Assembly: GCA_000585075.1 (NCBI GenBank)
Contig: JEMY01000008.1
Location: 1-64,000, forward strand
Length of the DNA stretch: 64,000 nucleotides
From: Candidatus Accumulibacter regalis
GTDB lineage: Bacteria > Pseudomonadota > Gammaproteobacteria > Burkholderiales > Rhodocyclaceae
Reading direction: 5' to 3'
Positions 20,803 to 32,637 of this stretch are shown in pieces. The position numbers and the translations under genes were made by a program. Under the pieces are notes generated by a model that did no database searches, was not told where the DNA came from, and saw nothing but the letters and a program-made list of their open reading frames with translations. Every line of letters begins with the position of its first letter. The first letter of the stretch is position 1.

Positions 20803-21199
20803 CGCTTGACAAACTTCAGACCGAGAAATTGATCAGCACCCAGCGGGGGAAATCCAGTTTCACGCCGGCTGATGGCGAGCCGTTGCAGCTTGACCGCGAC
20901 AAAACGACCTTTCGTCCTTTTCCGCGTGCTCTGTGCTAGCCGCCGGCGCCATCCGGCTGAGACCTCTCGCCGGGCCGAAGCCAAGCCAACGCGGCTGGAT
21001 AAGCTGTCGAAAAAACTTACACAGCGTCGCGAAGCGAGATCTTCTTGCGATTGCAAATCACATTACGTCAATGAGTTGCATTTTATGGTGTGAAATTTGC
21101 TTCCATTGTGGCGTGGGCGATATTTGCGGTGCTTGCCCTTATATCCCTGACGCCCGTGGGCCGGCCAGCCGGCGTCTTACGACTCTTGAAGGAAATTCG
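20803..21199. other. Intergenic, upstream region of PEP-CTERM gene
   Basis: No gene is supported. The AT-richer stretch 21050-21150 probably holds the promoter of the PEP-CTERM gene. Confidence 0.4.
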
Positions 21200-22153
21200 A
21201 TGAACGCGATGCTTAGAAAACTTGGGGTGGCGATCGCCGTTGCCGGGTCATGTGCGGCCAGCACGGCTTTTGCCAATGGAGTCGTCGATCTGTGGGCGAT
21301 GTCCAATAGTGGCGATGGAAACTTGTGGACCATTGATGTCGGTGCCAACACCACCACGCTGATCGGTGCACTCAAGGACCCGGTGCTCGGCGACGTGGGC
21401 ACTGGCTGGTCCACGGTTGCCGAGACACCTGACAAGACGCTGTATTTCATGCGGCGATTTCAGTCGGATGTTCACATCTTCAGCCTCGACTCGACCAACA
21501 TCCAGGTCAGCGCCGGCATTATCACCAACGTCGTCAGCCTGGGTTCGACCGGGTTGGGCGGCAACCTCGACGGCTTGACCGCCGGACCCGACGGCAAACT
21601 TTACTTCACGGCTTACGATAACGACCATAGCGCTTTCGCGCGCAACGGACTGTTTCGCTTCGATCCGGGCACCGCGATGACCGACTTCGTCGGGACATTC
21701 GCCGGCAACGGTGGTCCCAGCGGCGTCAATTCCTTCTACACCGATCTGGCCTTCGATCCGCTTACCGGTGATCTCATTGGCACGGGTACCAACGGCAGCG
21801 GTGCTTTCATTCCCTACCGGCTAAGCGGCGCCTCGGTACTTACCGGCAACAACCACGTGTATTCCTACGTCGACGCGTTCGCGTCGTGGAATGCGGCACT
21901 CTTCGATGGCCTGGCCTACAATCGGCTGACCGGCGACCTCTACGCATCAGGCGATAGCGGCGGTGTGTACCAGATCGATCGCACGACCGGGGCAATCATC
22001 CAGAATGTCGGAAACAACGCTGGTTCTGGCGTTGGCACTGACCTCGCGGTCCAGGCCGACACCATTCCGACCGTGCCAGAGCCGGCGACCCTGGTGTTGC
22101 TAGGGCTGGGGTTGGTGGGTATAGGCTTTGGTCGTCGCCAGAAAAAAAGGTAG
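21200..22153 (+). CDS. PEP-CTERM sorting-domain protein, propeller-like
   Basis: The 317-residue protein has a signal peptide (LRKLGVAIAVAGSCAASTAFA, cleaved near residue 25). The mature part has repeated blade-like motifs (LDGLTAGPDGKLYFTAYDND and LAFDPLTGDLIGTGTNG), suggesting a beta-propeller. The C-terminus is a classical PEP-CTERM tail: VPEPATLVLLGLGLVGIGFG followed by RRQKKR. Such proteins are processed by exosortase and sent to the cell surface or matrix. GAAGGAAA precedes the ATG. No exosortase gene is in the window. Confidence 0.9.
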   Translation: MNAMLRKLGVAIAVAGSCAASTAFANGVVDLWAMSNSGDGNLWTIDVGANTTTLIGALKDPVLGDVGTGWSTVAETPDKTLYFMRRFQSDVHIFSLDSTNIQVSAGIITNVVSLGSTGLGGNLDGLTAGPDGKLYFTAYDNDHSAFARNGLFRFDPGTAMTDFVGTFAGNGGPSGVNSFYTDLAFDPLTGDLIGTGTNGSGAFIPYRLSGASVLTGNNHVYSYVDAFASWNAALFDGLAYNRLTGDLYASGDSGGVYQIDRTTGAIIQNVGNNAGSGVGTDLAVQADTIPTVPEPATLVLLGLGLVGIGFGRRQKKR

Positions 22154-22207
22154 GCCCGGGTTGCGGAAGCACCAAACGGGGTCAGGTCTTTCCCGGGGCA
22201 AACACGG

Positions 22208-25886: not shown

Positions 25887-28879
25887 ATGCCGGTCAGCTT
25901 TCTGTCCAACAAACAGTGCGAGAACTATGGTCACTACACAGGGGCACCGTCACCCCACGACCTCGCCCGTTACTTCCATCTCGACGATCCCGACCACGCG
26001 CTGATCGCGCAGAAGCGCGGCAAGCACAACCGGCTCGGTTTCGCCGTTCAGCTCGGTACGGTGCGTTATCTCGGCACGTTCCTTGAAGACCCTCTGGCTG
26101 TGCCGGTGCCGGTGCTGCAGTCGCTGGCCAGGCAATTGCGCATCGAGGTGGGCAGCCGTGTGTTGGCTTATCGTGCGGGCGAGCAGCGTTGGCAGCACAG
26201 GACGGAAATCCGCCGCTCCTATGGCTATGTCGAGATCACCGAGCGCCAGGTCGGCTTTCGCCTGACCCGCTGGCTATACGCGCTGTGCTGGACCGGAACC
26301 GATCGCCCAAGTGTCCTGTTCGAGCGAGCCGTCACCTGGCTGGTGACGCACAAGGTGTTGCTGCCCGGCTGCAGCACCCTCGAACGCTATATCGCCCGCC
26401 TGCGCAGTCGGGTCGAGGAGCGGCTGTGGCGCTCTCTCGGCCGCGGTATCAGCGGCGAACAGCAGAAAAAGCTGGAAAACCTGCTGCTCGTCCCAACCGG
26501 CAGCCGAACCTCACCACTGGATCGCCTGCGCGCCGGACCGGTGATGGTCAACAGCCGATCACTGGTCTTGGCCCTGGTGCGGCTGAGCTCGGTACGCGAA
26601 CTGGGCATCAGGCTGCCAGCCGCGGCTCGCATCCCGGCCACCCGTGTGGCGGCCTTGGCGCGGTATGCGGGCACTGCCAAGGTCGGTGCCATCCTGCGCT
26701 TGCCGCATCCGCGCCGCTTGGCGACGCTGGTCGCCTTCGCGCATTGCCTGGAAGCTAGCGCGCAGCATGACGTACTGAAAGTGCTGGAGACGATCCTGCG
26801 CGAATTATTCGGCGACGCCATCAAGGCCGACAGGAAAGCGCGCCTGCGCTCGCTGAGGGATCTGGATCAAGCGGCCGCGACCCTGGCCGGCGCCTGCCAG
26901 ATACTGCTGGATACCGGTTTGCCAGATGGCGAGCTGCGCACCAGATTGTTGGAGAAGATTCCACGCACCACGCTCACGCAGGCGCTGGAAGGCGTCCAAT
27001 CCCTGATCCGACCCGCCGACAACGTGTACTACCGGGAGTTGGATGCCAAGTATCGAACGGTGCGTTGCTTTCTGCCGGCTCTGGTCGAGAACATTCGCTT
27101 CGGCGCGAACGCCGCCGGCGAGCCGGTCGTCGCTGCCTTCGATTGGCTGCGGGCCAACATGAGGCGGAAGAGGCCAGGCAACGATGCACCGCGCGAAGTA
27201 GTCGGCAAATCCTGGCAGCGGCATGTTCTGCGAGGTGATGACAGCGTCGATTTCCACGCCTATATCTTTTGCGTGCTGGATGAATTGCACACGGCCCTGC
27301 GCCGACGTGACGTGTTTGTGGCGCCAAGCTGGCGTTATGCCGATCCGCGCACCGGCCTACTCGATGGCGCCGAGTGGGAAGCCACCCGGCCGATCATCTG
27401 CCGGACCTTGGGACTATCGGCCGATCCCGAGCCGACGCTGACCGCCTTGGCTAGCGAGCTGGATCGCACCTATCGTGCGGTGGTCGACCGGTTGCCCGAC
27501 AACCCGGCGGTGCGATTCGAAACGACTGGCGACAAGCACGACCTGGTGCTCAGTCCCTTCGACAAGCTGGATGAGCCAGCCTCGTTGGTCGCGTTGCGCG
27601 AAAAGGTCGCCGGGTTGCTGCCTCGTGTCGACCTGCCCGAACTGATTCTGGAAATTGCCGCACGGACGGGTTTCACCGACGCCTTCACCCATATCTCGGA
27701 GCGAACGGCCCGCGCCGCCGATCTCCCGATCAGCCTGTGCGCGGTACTTATGGCCGAAGCGTGCAATACCGGACCGGAGCCGTTGATTCGCGGCGACGTC
27801 CCGGCACTCAAGCGCGAGCGCTTATCCTGGGTAGACCAGAGTTATGTCGGCGACGACACGCTGACAGCGGCCAACGCGATGCTGGTCAATGCGCAATCGT
27901 GTCTGGTTCTGGCAACCTTTTGGGGTGGCGGCGAGGTCGCATCGGCCGACGGCATACGTTTCGTGGTGCCGGTGCGCACGGTGCATGCCGGCCCCAATCC
28001 CAAATATTTCGGGGTTGGTCGCGGTGTCACCTGGTACAAGCTGATCTCTGACCAGTTCTCGGGCTTGAACGACATCACCGTGCCCGGTACCTTGCGTGAC
28101 AGCCTGATCCTCCTGGCCGTGGTGCTCGAACAACAGACCGACCTTCAGCCGACGCAGATCATGACCGACACCGGCGCTTATAGCGACGTGGTGTTCGGTC
28201 TTTTCTGGCTGCTTGGCTATCGCTTCAGCCCGCGATTGGCGGATGTCGGCGGCACACGCTTCTGGCGAATCGACCCGCAGGCTGACTACGGCCTGCTCAA
28301 CACCGTTTCGGCCCACCATCTCAGTCTGCAGAAGATCGTACCGTATTGGGACGACACGTTGCGCCTGGCCGGTTCACTCAAACTCGGTCGCGTGCCGGCC
28401 GCCGGAATCATGCGCACACTCCAGGTTGGCGACCGGCCAGCAAGGCTGGCACTGGCTATCGCTGAATTCGGCCGGATCGACAAGGCCATCCACACGCTGA
28501 CCTACATCGATGACGAAGCCAAGCGGCGCGCTACGTTGACGCAGCTCAACAGAGGCGAGGGCCGACACAGCGTTGCTCGAGCCGTGTTCCATGGCAAGCG
28601 CGGCGAGCTGCACCAACGTTACGCGAAGGACAGGAAGACCAGTTGGGCGCGCTCGGCTTGGTGCTGAACATGATCGTGTTGTGGAACACCATCTACATCG
28701 CGGCAACCGTGAAGCAACTGCGCTCGGAGGGCTACCCGGTGGCAGACGAAGACGTGGTGCGCCTGTCTCCGCTGCTGTACGAACACATCAACATGCTGGG
28801 GCGCTATTCGTTCTCGGTTCCGGAAGCTGTGACCAAAGGCGAATTGCGACCTTTGCGCAATCCCGCAGACGACGAATAG
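25887..28879 (+). pseudogene. tnpA: Tn3-family transposase, frameshifted near the C-terminus
   Basis: Codons 1-912 match Tn3-type transposases from MPVSFLSNKQCENYGHYTGA onward. The DDE residues lie in ASADGIRF, MTDTGAYSDVVFGLF and QLNRGEGRH (the Glu near 890). At 28622 the expected RYREGQEDQ reads RYAKDRKTS because one base is missing; the normal frame resumes to 28879 (GALGLVLNMIVLWNTIYIAA). The first frame stops at 28667. All catalytic residues stay in the first frame, but the C-terminal 85 residues are lost. Confidence 0.88.
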
Positions 28880-29046
28880 GCGGCGCGCTTGCCCGGAACT
28901 GGGACCACGGATACCTTGGGGAAGAAGTAGCGGAAGCGTGCGGCTGCTGTAGCCATGGCTGGTCTGACGATGACAAACACCTAACTCGGTTTTCCGTTCC
29001 ACTGCACCTCAAACCCCGGGATGACGGAATTTTCGGCGGTTCCGGC

Positions 29047-29253
29047 TTACAACCCCTGGAAGGTACCCAGAAAGCGCGCCGTCGCCAGTTGAAGCGCGTA
29101 ACCCAGGCGACTCCTGTCGCGCCGCTTGCGGGCGATCCCCGCCCGGTCATCGTCGTCCAGGTAGAAGTAGCGCGCCAGTTGCTCGGCGGAGGGGGTTGCT
29201 GGATACCGGCCGTAGCGTTCCCGTTGTGTGGCGGACAGGAAGCTGACCGGCAT
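29047..29253 (-). pseudogene. N-terminal fragment of a second Tn3-family transposase
   Basis: The frame starts at 29253 with [20 protein letters not shown] and continues to [10 protein letters not shown], clearly related to, but distinct from, the first transposase. It ends after about 68 codons, so the element was truncated, probably where it meets the downstream end of the first transposon. Confidence 0.85.
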
Positions 29254-29257
29254 TGCA

Positions 29258-29653
29258 TCAAAGTGTTTCGGCGCAGAAGACGGTGGGGGTGACGATGCGC
29301 GCGCGACCAAGGTTGCCCAGTTGCAGCAGCCCGGCGCGGCGATCGCCGGTCAAAGCCATCGCGAGCAGGAACGCGTCATTCGGATCGCTCACATCGACAC
29401 CCTCCGGGAGAGGTGGCAGGACTCCCAGCACGACCGCGCGCTGCATGTTGTTCACCATTGTGCCGATGCGGTGGGCAGGCAGTATGGTCTTGAGTTTTGG
29501 GTAACGGCTTACGCGTCGCAGTTCGTCAAGCTGCGCCGTCGATGTCACCAGATCGAACCTGGCCGCGCGCCAGGCGCGATAGATCGTGTCAGGCGGGCCG
29601 TGCGGCGAAATCAGTGCACCGAGTAGGACATTGGTGTCCAGGATGACGCGCAT
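29258..29653 (-). CDS. PIN-domain toxin
   Basis: The 131-residue protein starts [20 protein letters not shown]. The acidic residues of the PIN nuclease site are visible in ILDTNV, LDELRRV and DPNDAFLL. It overlaps its antitoxin by one base at 29653. VapC-like RNase activity is inferred from the family. It sits between transposase and resolvase remnants of the same Tn3 relic. Confidence 0.9.
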
Positions 29654-29892
29654 CAGTGCTCACGCGCCCATTGCACCGCCTCATCGACGAGGTCGGCCAA
29701 CTCAGCTTCGCTCATCTTGCCGGTCGCTGTCTTGGCTTGTTCGACGGCCCTCTCCAGGAGGTAGGCACGCACGGCTTCCTCGATGAAGCGCGACAGGTCT
29801 CCCTTGCGGCCACCGCCTTGTGCCGCGATGAACATACGCACGGACTGATCCGTGTCCGGCGACACGGCGATGTTCCAGCGGACTGAATTCAT
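29653..29892 (-). CDS. Ribbon-helix-helix antitoxin
   Basis: The 79-residue protein starts MNSVRWNIAVSPDTDQSVRM after a GGAG ribosome site and has an RHH-type N-terminal half (KGDLSRFIEEAVRAYLLE). The C-terminal half would wrap the PIN toxin. Start 29892 is preferred to 29946. Confidence 0.88.
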   Translation of the reverse strand: MNSVRWNIAVSPDTDQSVRMFIAAQGGGRKGDLSRFIEEAVRAYLLERAVEQAKTATGKMSEAELADLVDEAVQWAREH

Positions 29893-29961
29893 GATGCTCT
29901 CCGGTGTTTGTGTGTATAGATGTTTGTACGCTTGTCGATAGGCCATGCAAGTCGGTGCAGT

Positions 29962-30096: not shown

Positions 30097-30355
30097 ATGA
30101 TAATTGGCTATGCGCGGGTGAGCACGCGCGACCAGCACCTGGACTTGCAGGCGGATTCACTCAAGCACGCCGCGTGCAAACGCATCTACCAGGATGTGGC
30201 GAGTGGCGCGAAGACCGTACGCCCGGCGCTCGACAAATTGTTGGATCAGCTACGAGCCGGCGACGTGCTGGTGATCTGGAAACTCGATCGTATGGGCCGC
30301 TCGCTCAAGCATCTGGTCGAACTGCTCGGCAACCTGATGGCGCGCAAGGTCGGGC
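30097..30355 (+). pseudogene. Truncated Tn3-type resolvase
   Basis: The frame has MIIGYARVSTRDQHLDLQAD, including the catalytic Ser, and LVIWKLDRMGRSLKHLVELL. Family similarity ends after about 86 residues at ARKVG; the frame then runs into unrelated sequence. The DNA-binding domain is lost. Confidence 0.88.
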
Positions 30356-30504
30356 TGCTCGGTCTGTTCCGGCTACTTGTGGATATTCAAGGTCGCAATG
30401 ATTACCCATACCGCGCGAGACGCGGGTCAGCCACGTCCAGTTCGCCAGGATCAGCCGTGCGGCGATCCGCTCAGCCAACGGCAATCGCCGTTACTGCGCC
30501 GGAA

Positions 30505-31284
30505 TTACTTCATGCTTTCGAGCACGTCGACCAGCACCTGGTCGAAGGTGTCGACGCGGATGAGTCCCAGGCGTGGGTACTCGATGTCGATGACGACGTG
30601 CACCGCCAGGGCCATGCTCGCGGCAAAGCCGATCATGTGGAGCCAGCTGCGCGCCTTGGCGGCGGACATGCCGTAGCCGGCGAGCAGTGCGGCAATCAGC
30701 GCCAGTCCGTAGAGCAGCACGAAGATGACCACGGGGGGGTGCATCGCCGTCGCTGTGGTACGGGTGGTGGTGATGTCGATCATCTGGTTCAGCGCCGGCA
30801 AAAGCAGCATCGTGGCGGCGGGTGGCGCGTCGTTCATCTGGCTGGCGGCAAGCGCCTGGTTCCAGATTTCTCCCTGCAGCTTGATTGAATGCGCCAGTTC
30901 GGCCTTGGCCGCTGCGATGTCGGGCAGTTTCCGATAGGCCTCCAACCGGGAACCGACGTAGCGCCGGAAGAGATCGCGCAACGCCGGTTGCGCGCCGGGA
31001 GGCAGAAGGTCGAGCCGCAGGTAGGCGGTGCCAATGTCGTTGGCCTCCTGGACGACCAGGTTCCGACGCTCGTCAAAGCGCGTCGCCGCGCCCGAGAAAG
31101 TGAAGGCGATGAGCAAGCCGAGGAGGGCGAACACCGCGCCATCGACCGCGCCGGTACCGGCTTGTGCGCCGTCCGGATCGATGGAGCGGCGGCGAACGCC
31201 AATCCGTCGACCAATTTCGAGCAGCGCGACCATGCCGAAGAACAGGACAAGGCTGATCAGCGAAGCGAAGGCGGTGTAGCTCAT
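30505..31284 (-). CDS. Bestrophin-like/DUF4239-type membrane protein
   Basis: The 259-residue protein has four hydrophobic segments: 8-24, 48-66 (AVFALLGLLIAFTFSGAA), about 185-205 and 215-235. Between them is a helical soluble loop with RRNLVVQEANDIGTAYLRLD, the signature of the DUF4239 family, and LRDLFRRYVGSRLEAYR. The family is predicted to be membrane channels or relatives; the role is not established. It stands alone to the right of the transposon debris. Confidence 0.75.
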   Translation of the reverse strand: MSYTAFASLISLVLFFGMVALLEIGRRIGVRRRSIDPDGAQAGTGAVDGAVFALLGLLIAFTFSGAATRFDERRNLVVQEANDIGTAYLRLDLLPPGAQPALRDLFRRYVGSRLEAYRKLPDIAAAKAELAHSIKLQGEIWNQALAASQMNDAPPAATMLLLPALNQMIDITTTRTTATAMHPPVVIFVLLYGLALIAALLAGYGMSAAKARSWLHMIGFAASMALAVHVVIDIEYPRLGLIRVDTFDQVLVDVLESMK

Positions 31285-31929
31285 GGAGTTCTCCTTCTGG
31301 CCGGCGATTTCTCGCCATTGTCGTCGACAATCGGCAACCCCTTATAGCGCAATCGGTGGCTGCTGTGGCGACAACTTCTTCGTCGAAGGACTGGGGAGAG
31401 GCGTCGGTCACGAATTGGTGTGTTCCAAGGCAGCGACAGCGTCGCCGCAGCAAGCACCCGCCTGCGCTCAGTTCGTGGCGTACGAGCCCAGCGGGCGCCA
31501 TCCGTTCTGGAGAAAAATCCCGCAAAATCAGCAGCGCACGAGAAATCGGTCAGCCGAGCGTAAGCTGCAGGGCGCCACTGGGCAAGCCGGGTGTGCGGTC
31601 CAAACCAACGCGATCATCCCTTCGGTATCGTGGTGTCGGAATATCTTACACGGCGCTGAACTCGGTCCGGCGCGCGTCAACGTGACGCGCGTCATGCTTC
31701 TGTTTCAATTGAATACTTTGACTCCTCCAGCGACATGGCCCAAGTTTTGCTTATTGCTCGCCAGACGGAAGAAGGCGCCGTCCATGCGAATGCGCCTTGC
31801 GATTGACAAGTGGCCACCGCTGCGAGGGTCAAAGCCGCGTCCTTTCCGCAAGACCTGGCCCGGATTTGATGGGCCGAATCTCTCCAGTCTGGAGTCATTT
31901 CTTCATTTCGAACTCGCAGGAGAAGCACC
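31285..31929. other. Intergenic, no supported gene
   Basis: Open frames cover this stretch on both strands but lack family character and ribosome sites. The end of it should contain the leader of the exported protein at 31930, which has AGGAGAAG ten bases before its start. Confidence 0.4.
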
Positions 31930-32637
31930 TTGAAATCCATCGTCGATCGGGCAAGTCGCCGGCTCATGCTGGCCTGCGGTCTGCTGGTTCTAGCGCTGCC
32001 GGTGGTTCACGCGGACGTTATTCCCTCGGGCACTACCTACTTGACCGGGTTCGGCAGTGGTACCGCCACCTTCGTCACGGATGGTACTTCCAACACCATC
32101 CGCTTTGGCGAACAGACGCGCGTCGCCACCTGCCTGGACGGCGTCATCGGCAGGGATGCGCCGCTCGGCTCGATTGTCGACGGCAGCAGCAACACGATCA
32201 TCTTTGGACCTTCGATGTTCCTGAGCCTGCAGGTCGGGCAGTCGCTCGCCTATCAGCCGATCGGCAACATCCAGGACGGCACGTCGAACACGATCTTCAT
32301 CGGCGAGAACGAGCCTGGCAGGAGATGTTTTTCGGGCGAAACCGCGATCATCGACGTCGGTAACGCCGTCGTCGACGGGACCAGCAACACGATCGAATTC
32401 GGCGAGAACTCGCGCTTCGATGTCTGTTTCCGCCAGGTCAGCGTCGGACGCATCGTCGACGGCACCAGCAATACGCTTGAGTTTGGCGAAGTGACGAGCA
32501 GCCCGGTCTGTTTTGCGGACGTGCGAGTCGGCACGCCGGCAGTCGCGACGGTCGCCGAAGGCAGCACCCTGGGCTTGCTTGCCATCGGCCTGGCCGCTCT
32601 CGCGAGGCGTCGCCGCGTCCGCTCCGGACCACTCTAG
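31930..32637 (+). CDS. Exported protein with five DGTSNTI repeats and degenerate PEP-CTERM tail
   Basis: The 235-residue protein has a signal peptide (LMLACGLLVLALPVVHA, residues 12-28). The mature part contains five repeats of the form (I/V)xDG(T/S)SNTIxFGE at about residues 51, 78, 115, 142 and 177. The C-terminus, VAEGSTLGLLAIGLAALARR plus RR, has the hydrophobic helix and Arg cluster of PEP-CTERM signals, but AEG replaces the PEP motif. DGTSNTI is otherwise known as a C-terminal motif of planctomycete DUF1559 proteins. The function is unknown; a repetitive surface protein is likely. Confidence 0.8.
   Translation: MKSIVDRASRRLMLACGLLVLALPVVHADVIPSGTTYLTGFGSGTATFVTDGTSNTIRFGEQTRVATCLDGVIGRDAPLGSIVDGSSNTIIFGPSMFLSLQVGQSLAYQPIGNIQDGTSNTIFIGENEPGRRCFSGETAIIDVGNAVVDGTSNTIEFGENSRFDVCFRQVSVGRIVDGTSNTLEFGEVTSSPVCFADVRVGTPAVATVAEGSTLGLLAIGLAALARRRRVRSGPL

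Follow-up and report, generated by a model that had tools for sequence, protein, structure and literature searches.

A prepilin-type N-terminal methylation motif is a feature of the DUF1559 family (SBP_bac_10, PF07596). The PEP-CTERM proteins, sorted by an EpsH exosortase, carry at their C-terminus the tripeptide Pro-Glu-Pro (PEP), termed near-invariant, and their promoters follow a recognisable scheme: a 17-nt motif whose last letters are TTTACA is separated by 32-92 nt (mean 62.8) from a sigma-54 site, which itself lies at a mean distance of 71 nt (range 23-221) from the start codon; of 167 proteobacterial PEP-CTERM genes, 99 have this arrangement (PMC1569441). The PEP-CTERM gene pepA of Aquincola takes part in floc formation and is RpoN-dependent (PMC9850573), and a floc- and granule-related role is described for PEP-CTERM proteins (PMC9850573, PMC12019908) other than the one analysed here. 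The literature searched contained neither the letters DGTSNTI nor a paper treating DUF1559 and PEP-CTERM together, and a limited search returned no test of which PEP residues exosortase needs.

The window analysed here is a stretch of 64,000 nucleotides from Candidatus Accumulibacter regalis. In it, a gene standing singly behind a 645-nt upstream region encodes a protein built around an array of DGTSNTI motifs (Table 1). Its reading frame is uninterrupted by any stop or frameshift and its GC content is 63%, versus 62% for the window.

Table 1. Features of the DGTSNTI-array gene, its upstream region and the neighbouring mobile genes (window coordinates).
Feature	Position	Strand	Remarks
Tn3-type transposase	25887-28667		
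Second transposase fragment	29050-29310	minus	
RHH/PIN toxin-antitoxin-like pair	29258-29946	minus	
Resolvase N-terminal domain	30097-30888		in a longer frame
Motif 1 of the PEP-CTERM regulon, TGTCGGAATATCTTACA	31634..31650	+	TGTCG-N6-TTTACA, one mismatch
Sigma-54 (-24/-12) promoter-like site, TGGCCCAAGTTTTGCT	31736..31751	+	one mismatch to TGGCACRNRNNTTGCW
Likely ribosome-binding site, AGGAG	31918..31922	+	read from the sequence, 7 nt before the TTG start
DGTSNTI-array gene	31930..32637	+	235 aa, TTG start; ORF analysis
Signal peptide, MKSIVDRASRRLMLACGLLVLALPVVHA	31930..32013	+	residues 1-28; putative cleavage after VHA, by inspection
Repeat copy 1, VTDGTSNTIRFGE	32074..32112	+	residues 49-61
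Repeat copy 2, IVDGSSNTIIFGP	32173..32211	+	residues 82-94
Repeat copy 3, IQDGTSNTIFIGE	32269..32307	+	residues 114-126
Repeat copy 4, VVDGTSNTIEFGE	32368..32406	+	residues 147-159
Repeat copy 5, IVDGTSNTLEFGE	32452..32490	+	residues 175-187
PEP-CTERM-like tail, VAEGSTLGLLAIGLAALARRRR	32551..32616	+	residues 208-229; AEG in place of PEP

The first-pass annotation had described five (I/V)xDGTSNTIxFGE repeats making up the whole mature protein. The five copies were confirmed, DG[TS]SNT being found at residues 51, 84, 116, 149 and 177 with spacings of 33, 32, 33 and 28, but not all of them obey that formula: copy 2 reads DGSSNTIIFGP, copy 3 ends in FIGE and copy 5 reads TLEFGE. Nor do the motifs fill the mature protein, as they occupy about 13 out of every 28-33 residues and the rest is variable linker. 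The conserved unit, [IV]xDG[TS]SNT[IL]x[FIL]GE, is probably strand-forming. When the mature region was shuffled 100,000 times, one DG[TS]SNT copy appeared in 15 shuffles and two copies in none. Over 70 codon pairs, the cores of the copies exhibit 31 synonymous versus 8 non-synonymous differences, with serine encoded by TCC, TCG or AGC, and Tandem Repeats Finder detected no DNA-level array in the gene. Because the codon differences are mostly synonymous, the copies look old and maintained as protein rather than produced by recent DNA duplication. A cysteine follows copies 1, 3, 4 and 5 (residues 68, 133, 166 and 194); disulfides are conceivable.

Relatives were sought by scanning a two-motif DNA pattern over a species collection (84,980 genomes according to the tool description); 12 stretches were retrieved and all their frames were read. 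Because only stretches with GAC in the first copy and Thr in both copies can match this pattern, members of the family have been missed. An alphaproteobacterial MAG (L040) encodes a protein with five copies, 48% identical to the DGTSNTI-array protein and ending in the tail LPEVSALPLLGFGLIGLALARRRR (PEV). Desertibaculum subflavum, also from Alphaproteobacteria (L047), encodes one with four copies, 45% identity and the tail VPVPASLALLLTGLVALRLARR (PVP), and all four cysteines of the DGTSNTI-array protein align with cysteines of these two proteins. In an acidobacterial genome (Bryobacterales, L046), four copies lie within a longer protein with the tail VPEPGT. Aquabacterium terrae (L051, 1600-1767, minus strand) has two copies, 70% identical to those of the DGTSNTI-array protein, in a frame that lacks both signal peptide and tail and reads as the remnant of an array; the gene just upstream is presumably a LuxR-type regulator. 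Differently built arrays were found in two exported-looking Chloroflexi proteins (L043, 4822-5274; L045, 5130-5477), where DGTSNTIIIGEAT-like motifs sit on Pro/Thr-rich linkers, and Leadbetterella encodes a two-copy protein (L050). The stretches L041 and L049 (low-complexity frames) and L042, L044 and L048 (Cys-rich CGDGTTNTTAGEDCDD repeats) were discarded as unrelated.

A repeat-only profile, run on 385 genomes of the class of Desertibaculum (G567) with at most nine candidates scored per genome, matched G567 itself and G760 among the candidates scored. At the G760 locus (L142), copies of DGTSNTIQFAED and DGVSNTIQFGE recur along an Ala-rich frame some 1000 residues long, whose linkers are probably helical. 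A profile including the tail (369 genomes, at most seven candidates scored per genome) picked up PEP-CTERM tails for the most part, and among the 30 loci taken from its 37 rows, the DGTSNTI-array gene alone has DG[ST]SNT with I, L, V, M or A as the next residue. A protein-level scan of genome contigs for close relatives found none, and no relative was detected in viral contigs or in plasmids searched by protein. Within its own genome, the motif pattern matched nine places, five of them inside the gene; DG[ST]SNT is absent from the other four loci, one of which (L039) contains one DGTTNT within a frame of another kind. A protein search of the same genome returned the DGTSNTI-array protein alone, and a second carrier of the repeat was not found there. 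Run over this genome, PF07596 gave no match even in the controls and so carries no information. The repeat part is covered by no NCBIfam model, and sequence searches with the protein gave two PDB matches, both at E 2.2, and one PHROGs match at E 0.4.

Pfam PF07596 matches the protein at 1.5e-12 and also matches the relatives L040, L046 and L047. Such scores speak for a divergent DUF1559 protein of the planctomycete kind, a reading that we nevertheless hold to be highly improbable: in all four proteins the best stretch covers only 18 to 34 of the 268 profile positions, around the motif (positions 160-177, 18 of 268, in the DGTSNTI-array protein), the N-terminus reads as an ordinary signal peptide and the tail is PEP-CTERM-like. 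No prepilin-type start was seen on reading the sequence, and no prepilin family appeared among the profile matches. The link to DUF1559 drawn in the first-pass annotation thus holds for the short motif common to both and fails across the domain; judged from the sequence, the protein is not a DUF1559 member and only the motif matches.

Structural models could not establish the beta-solenoid proposed for the array, both being of low confidence: the model of the DGTSNTI-array protein has a pLDDT of 32 and that of the L040 repeat part a mean pLDDT of 46, the latter from an alignment of 11 rows in which halves of the L040 and DGTSNTI-array repeats were re-entered as rows. In these poor models, NTIxFGE is a predicted strand in 4 of 5 copies and in 5 of 5 copies, respectively. 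With the L040 model, Foldseek returned nothing of weight (best E 4.9), and solenoids headed the rows of a second structural comparison (best Z 7.0 for 3p4g, rmsd 3.8 over 109 residues). Since the models are poor and the linkers flanking the motif in G760 are Ala-rich and probably helical, it would be unsafe to claim a fixed beta-solenoid.

The C-terminal signal was read as initially annotated, with a hydrophobic helix and then a basic cluster, together TLGLLAIGLAALARRRR, at the extreme C-terminus and AEG for PEP; the full-length model, of low confidence, has a helix at 212-231. With TIGR02595 (cut-off 16 bits), the tail scores 14.4 bits by hmmscan and 18.5 bits, over profile positions 3-23, in the genome search, and its status is borderline. 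The same profile gives 27 matches in the genome at E values up to 1, and among the 25 over cut-off, 23 tails read PEP, one reads PVP (L020) and one is the AEG tail; L029, below cut-off, reads SEP. The genome contains one EpsH exosortase match (244.3 bits, cut-off 105.55), so the enzyme whose genes the first-pass annotation had proposed to look for is encoded.

We also examined the tails of the relatives. In the genome search those of L040 and L047 score 16.1 and 18.8 bits, both over cut-off; by hmmscan L047 falls just under it (15.0 bits) and L040 is not listed. The L046 tail, despite its PEP, is not listed for TIGR02595, and with Pfam it reaches 18.7 bits against a cut-off of 20.7. From these low scores, weak tails appear to run through the family. 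Exosortase is present in all four genomes with relatives (L040, L046, L047 and L051), and an EpsH match is absent from both Chloroflexi genomes with differently built arrays. Substituted tripeptides occur elsewhere in the relatives' genomes: seven tails of Desertibaculum (L169-L175) read AEP, VEP or GEP, and the L040 genome has AEP once and PEG once. These come from 16 tails fetched out of 118 matches because they looked odd, and give no estimate of frequency; 26 of 28 further tail loci, mostly the best-scoring ones and two of them coinciding with the 16, read PEP.

It is possible, though we would not favour it, that the repeat protein is real and expressed while its tail is no exosortase substrate, having lost that property or never had it, and acts as a plain C-terminal anchor in the inner membrane with the array facing the periplasm. 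AEG has neither proline of the near-invariant motif, a feature which is therefore lacking here, and only one of the four compared tails (AEG, PEV in L040, PVP in L047, PEP in L046) has the canonical tripeptide. Against this, the remainder of the tail still resembles PEP-CTERM at 18.5 bits, the genomes of the relatives carry exosortase, and substituted tripeptides recur in them.

Upstream of the gene, we compared the promoter sites with those of 25 regions, namely the other 24 over-cut-off PEP-CTERM genes and the sub-cut-off L029. We took TGTCG-N6-TTTACA as the full form of motif 1, and then checked it against the genome; the 16-mer TGGCACRNRNNTTGCW is what we assume to be the sigma-54 consensus. 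The sigma-54 site lies 85 nt after motif 1, a presumed PrsR activator site, and 178 nt before the start codon; spacing and start distance are within the published extremes, 178 nt being at the long end. With at most one mismatch, motif 1 was found in the 5' regions of 13 of the 24 genes (11 exact) and all 13 carriers are among these 24, which include L151 with only 43 nt of flank, and L143 and L145, where the motif precedes the likely start within the stop-to-stop frame. The pair of motif 1 and a sigma-54 site (at most 2 mismatches, spacer 30-100 nt) was found in 7 of the 24, and the sigma-54 site is better than that of the DGTSNTI-array gene in one and equal in two of the 13 motif-1 genes. 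Dinucleotide shuffling of these 645 nt upstream of the gene, repeated 20,000 times, produced motif 1 in 59 cases, the sigma-54 site in 68 and the pair in none.

A second PEP-CTERM gene is located in the window at about 21005-22160, with the tail VPEPATLVLLGLGLVGIGFGRRQKKR and motif 1 at 21005-21021. Motif 1 occurs twice in the 64-kb window, once per PEP-CTERM gene; when the window was shuffled, two motif-1 sites arose in 8 of 100 cases and two sigma-54 sites in 18 of 100. Genome-wide, motif 1 occurs 51 times when one mismatch is allowed, versus 22 for the reversed pattern; 19 of the 51 are exact, and PEP-CTERM genes account for 11 of these. Many of the 32 one-mismatch sites, among which is that of the DGTSNTI-array gene, must be background, and genome-wide mostly so. 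The promoter reading consequently rests on the pairing and place of the sites, not on motif 1 alone. The pair is absent from L040, L046 and L047, none of which has a motif 1 with fewer than 3 mismatches; among these three, L047 alone has a sigma-54-like site, with two mismatches, 168 nt upstream.

In 199 other near genomes the search detected no true relative; among them, 20 congeners are listed without a match. A match in G147 was rejected as a chance hit, lying in what is presumably a nitrate reductase beta chain. Of 28 genomes of the genus, 25 carry a counterpart of the thioredoxin-like gene adjoining the array gene, the window's own genome being one of them, and none of the 24 other loci has the array nearby in the stretch covered (up to about 1.5 kb per side, less in L133, L134 and L140). 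Within the same stretch, the thioredoxin-HD pair of the window recurs only in the congener G008, whose synteny with the window (86% identity, 77% in the thioredoxin-like gene) ends where the thioredoxin-like gene ends. The DGTSNTI-array gene thus has a sporadic distribution, consistent with transfer or with repeated loss.

Mobile genes lie 1-6 kb from the gene (Table 1). As to a Tn3 element as carrier, 14 imperfect inverted pairs of 21-31 nt were obtained and are not convincing as transposon ends. Comparison of the 9-kb stretch with plasmids gave 185 records, the best 10 of which match the Tn3 transposase only. At the transposase fragment, 39 bp (29018-29056) are identical to positions 7040-7078 of L168 in the congener G008; this shared stretch is perhaps a transposon end.

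This setting bears on a further reading, in which the gene was acquired horizontally and is now decaying, the loss of PEP being the first sign. It is absent from all listed congeners, the synteny with G008 breaks off at the adjoining gene, the Tn3-type transposase, transposase fragment, resolvase N-terminus and RHH/PIN pair are close by, and the two-copy remnant of Aquabacterium indicates that decay does occur among relatives. We judge it unlikely all the same: the frame has neither stop nor frameshift, the motifs are kept with mostly synonymous codon differences, the promoter pair of the host regulon stands upstream, and the GC content is that of the surroundings.

The tail had been annotated as either a variant sorting signal or a decayed one, and the variant fits better: the promoter pair, the exosortase, the PEV, PVP and PEP tails of the relatives and the substituted tripeptides of their genomes, including VAEP and VPEG, all argue for a signal in use. 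The evidence supports an exported repeat protein with a PEP-CTERM-type tail as read from its sequence, and we lean, by a little, towards a protein that functions within the PEP-CTERM regulon of this genome and is sorted by EpsH via AEG. Transcription would start at the sigma-54 promoter driven by a PrsR-type activator, and the signal peptide recognised by inspection would direct Sec export. Anchored in the inner membrane by its C-terminal helix and Arg cluster, the protein would expose the AEG segment on the outer face to EpsH, which would recognise and cut it despite the altered tripeptide. By analogy with published PEP-CTERM proteins, the mature repeat protein would join the cell-bound polysaccharide matrix; its likely role is that of an exosortase-sorted matrix protein. 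The motif units may stack, or may serve on their variable linkers as repeated elements for binding or self-association. On the sequences compared, AEG would most simply be a relaxed tripeptide keeping the central Glu. Several observations go against a working regulon member: the near-invariance of PEP, the 23 PEP tails out of 25, the 14.4-bit hmmscan score, the mostly background nature of one-mismatch motif-1 sites across the genome, the frequency with which shuffled windows reach two motif-1 or two sigma-54 sites, the homologues without the promoter pair, the 178-nt start distance, the lack of a relative in 199 near genomes and the poor fold models. Our verdict is an undescribed, sporadic PEP-CTERM family.

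A wider proposal, which we offer as tentative, is that the motif is a free-standing 13-residue module arrayed on unrelated linkers in different bacteria: in proteobacteria the linkers bear Cys and the proteins have exosortase tails, in Chloroflexi the linkers are Pro-rich, and in G760 they are Ala-rich and probably helical. In the proteobacterial form, exosortase would recognise most members by the central Glu and not by the flanking prolines. As far as the literature and sequence searches made here extend, arrays of this motif have not been described as a component of exported proteins. As exosortase substrates are defined by PEP, a natural AEG candidate still behind the regulon promoter would make the residue needs of the enzyme testable.

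Compared with known systems, the protein shares with DUF1559/SBP_bac_10 (PF07596) the DGTSNTI motif at profile positions of about 160-177, but has five copies of it and no further DUF1559 sequence. RTX-type and ice-binding beta-solenoids are the top structural rows for the L040 model (Z 7.0, 3p4g), whereas the pLDDT of 46 and the Foldseek E of 4.9 make this no test of kinship. PepA (NF033554), associated with flocculation, is likewise a PEP-CTERM matrix protein and is weakly matched by L047 (28 of 80 bits, far under cut-off), but the DGTSNTI-array protein is not listed for it up to E 10. With the PEP-CTERM/EpsH system the locus shares a putative signal peptide, recognised by eye, a hydrophobic C-terminal helix with its Arg cluster, an exosortase in the genome and the two promoter motifs of the regulon upstream; it differs by AEG in place of PEP and by a repeat part outside the NCBIfam models.
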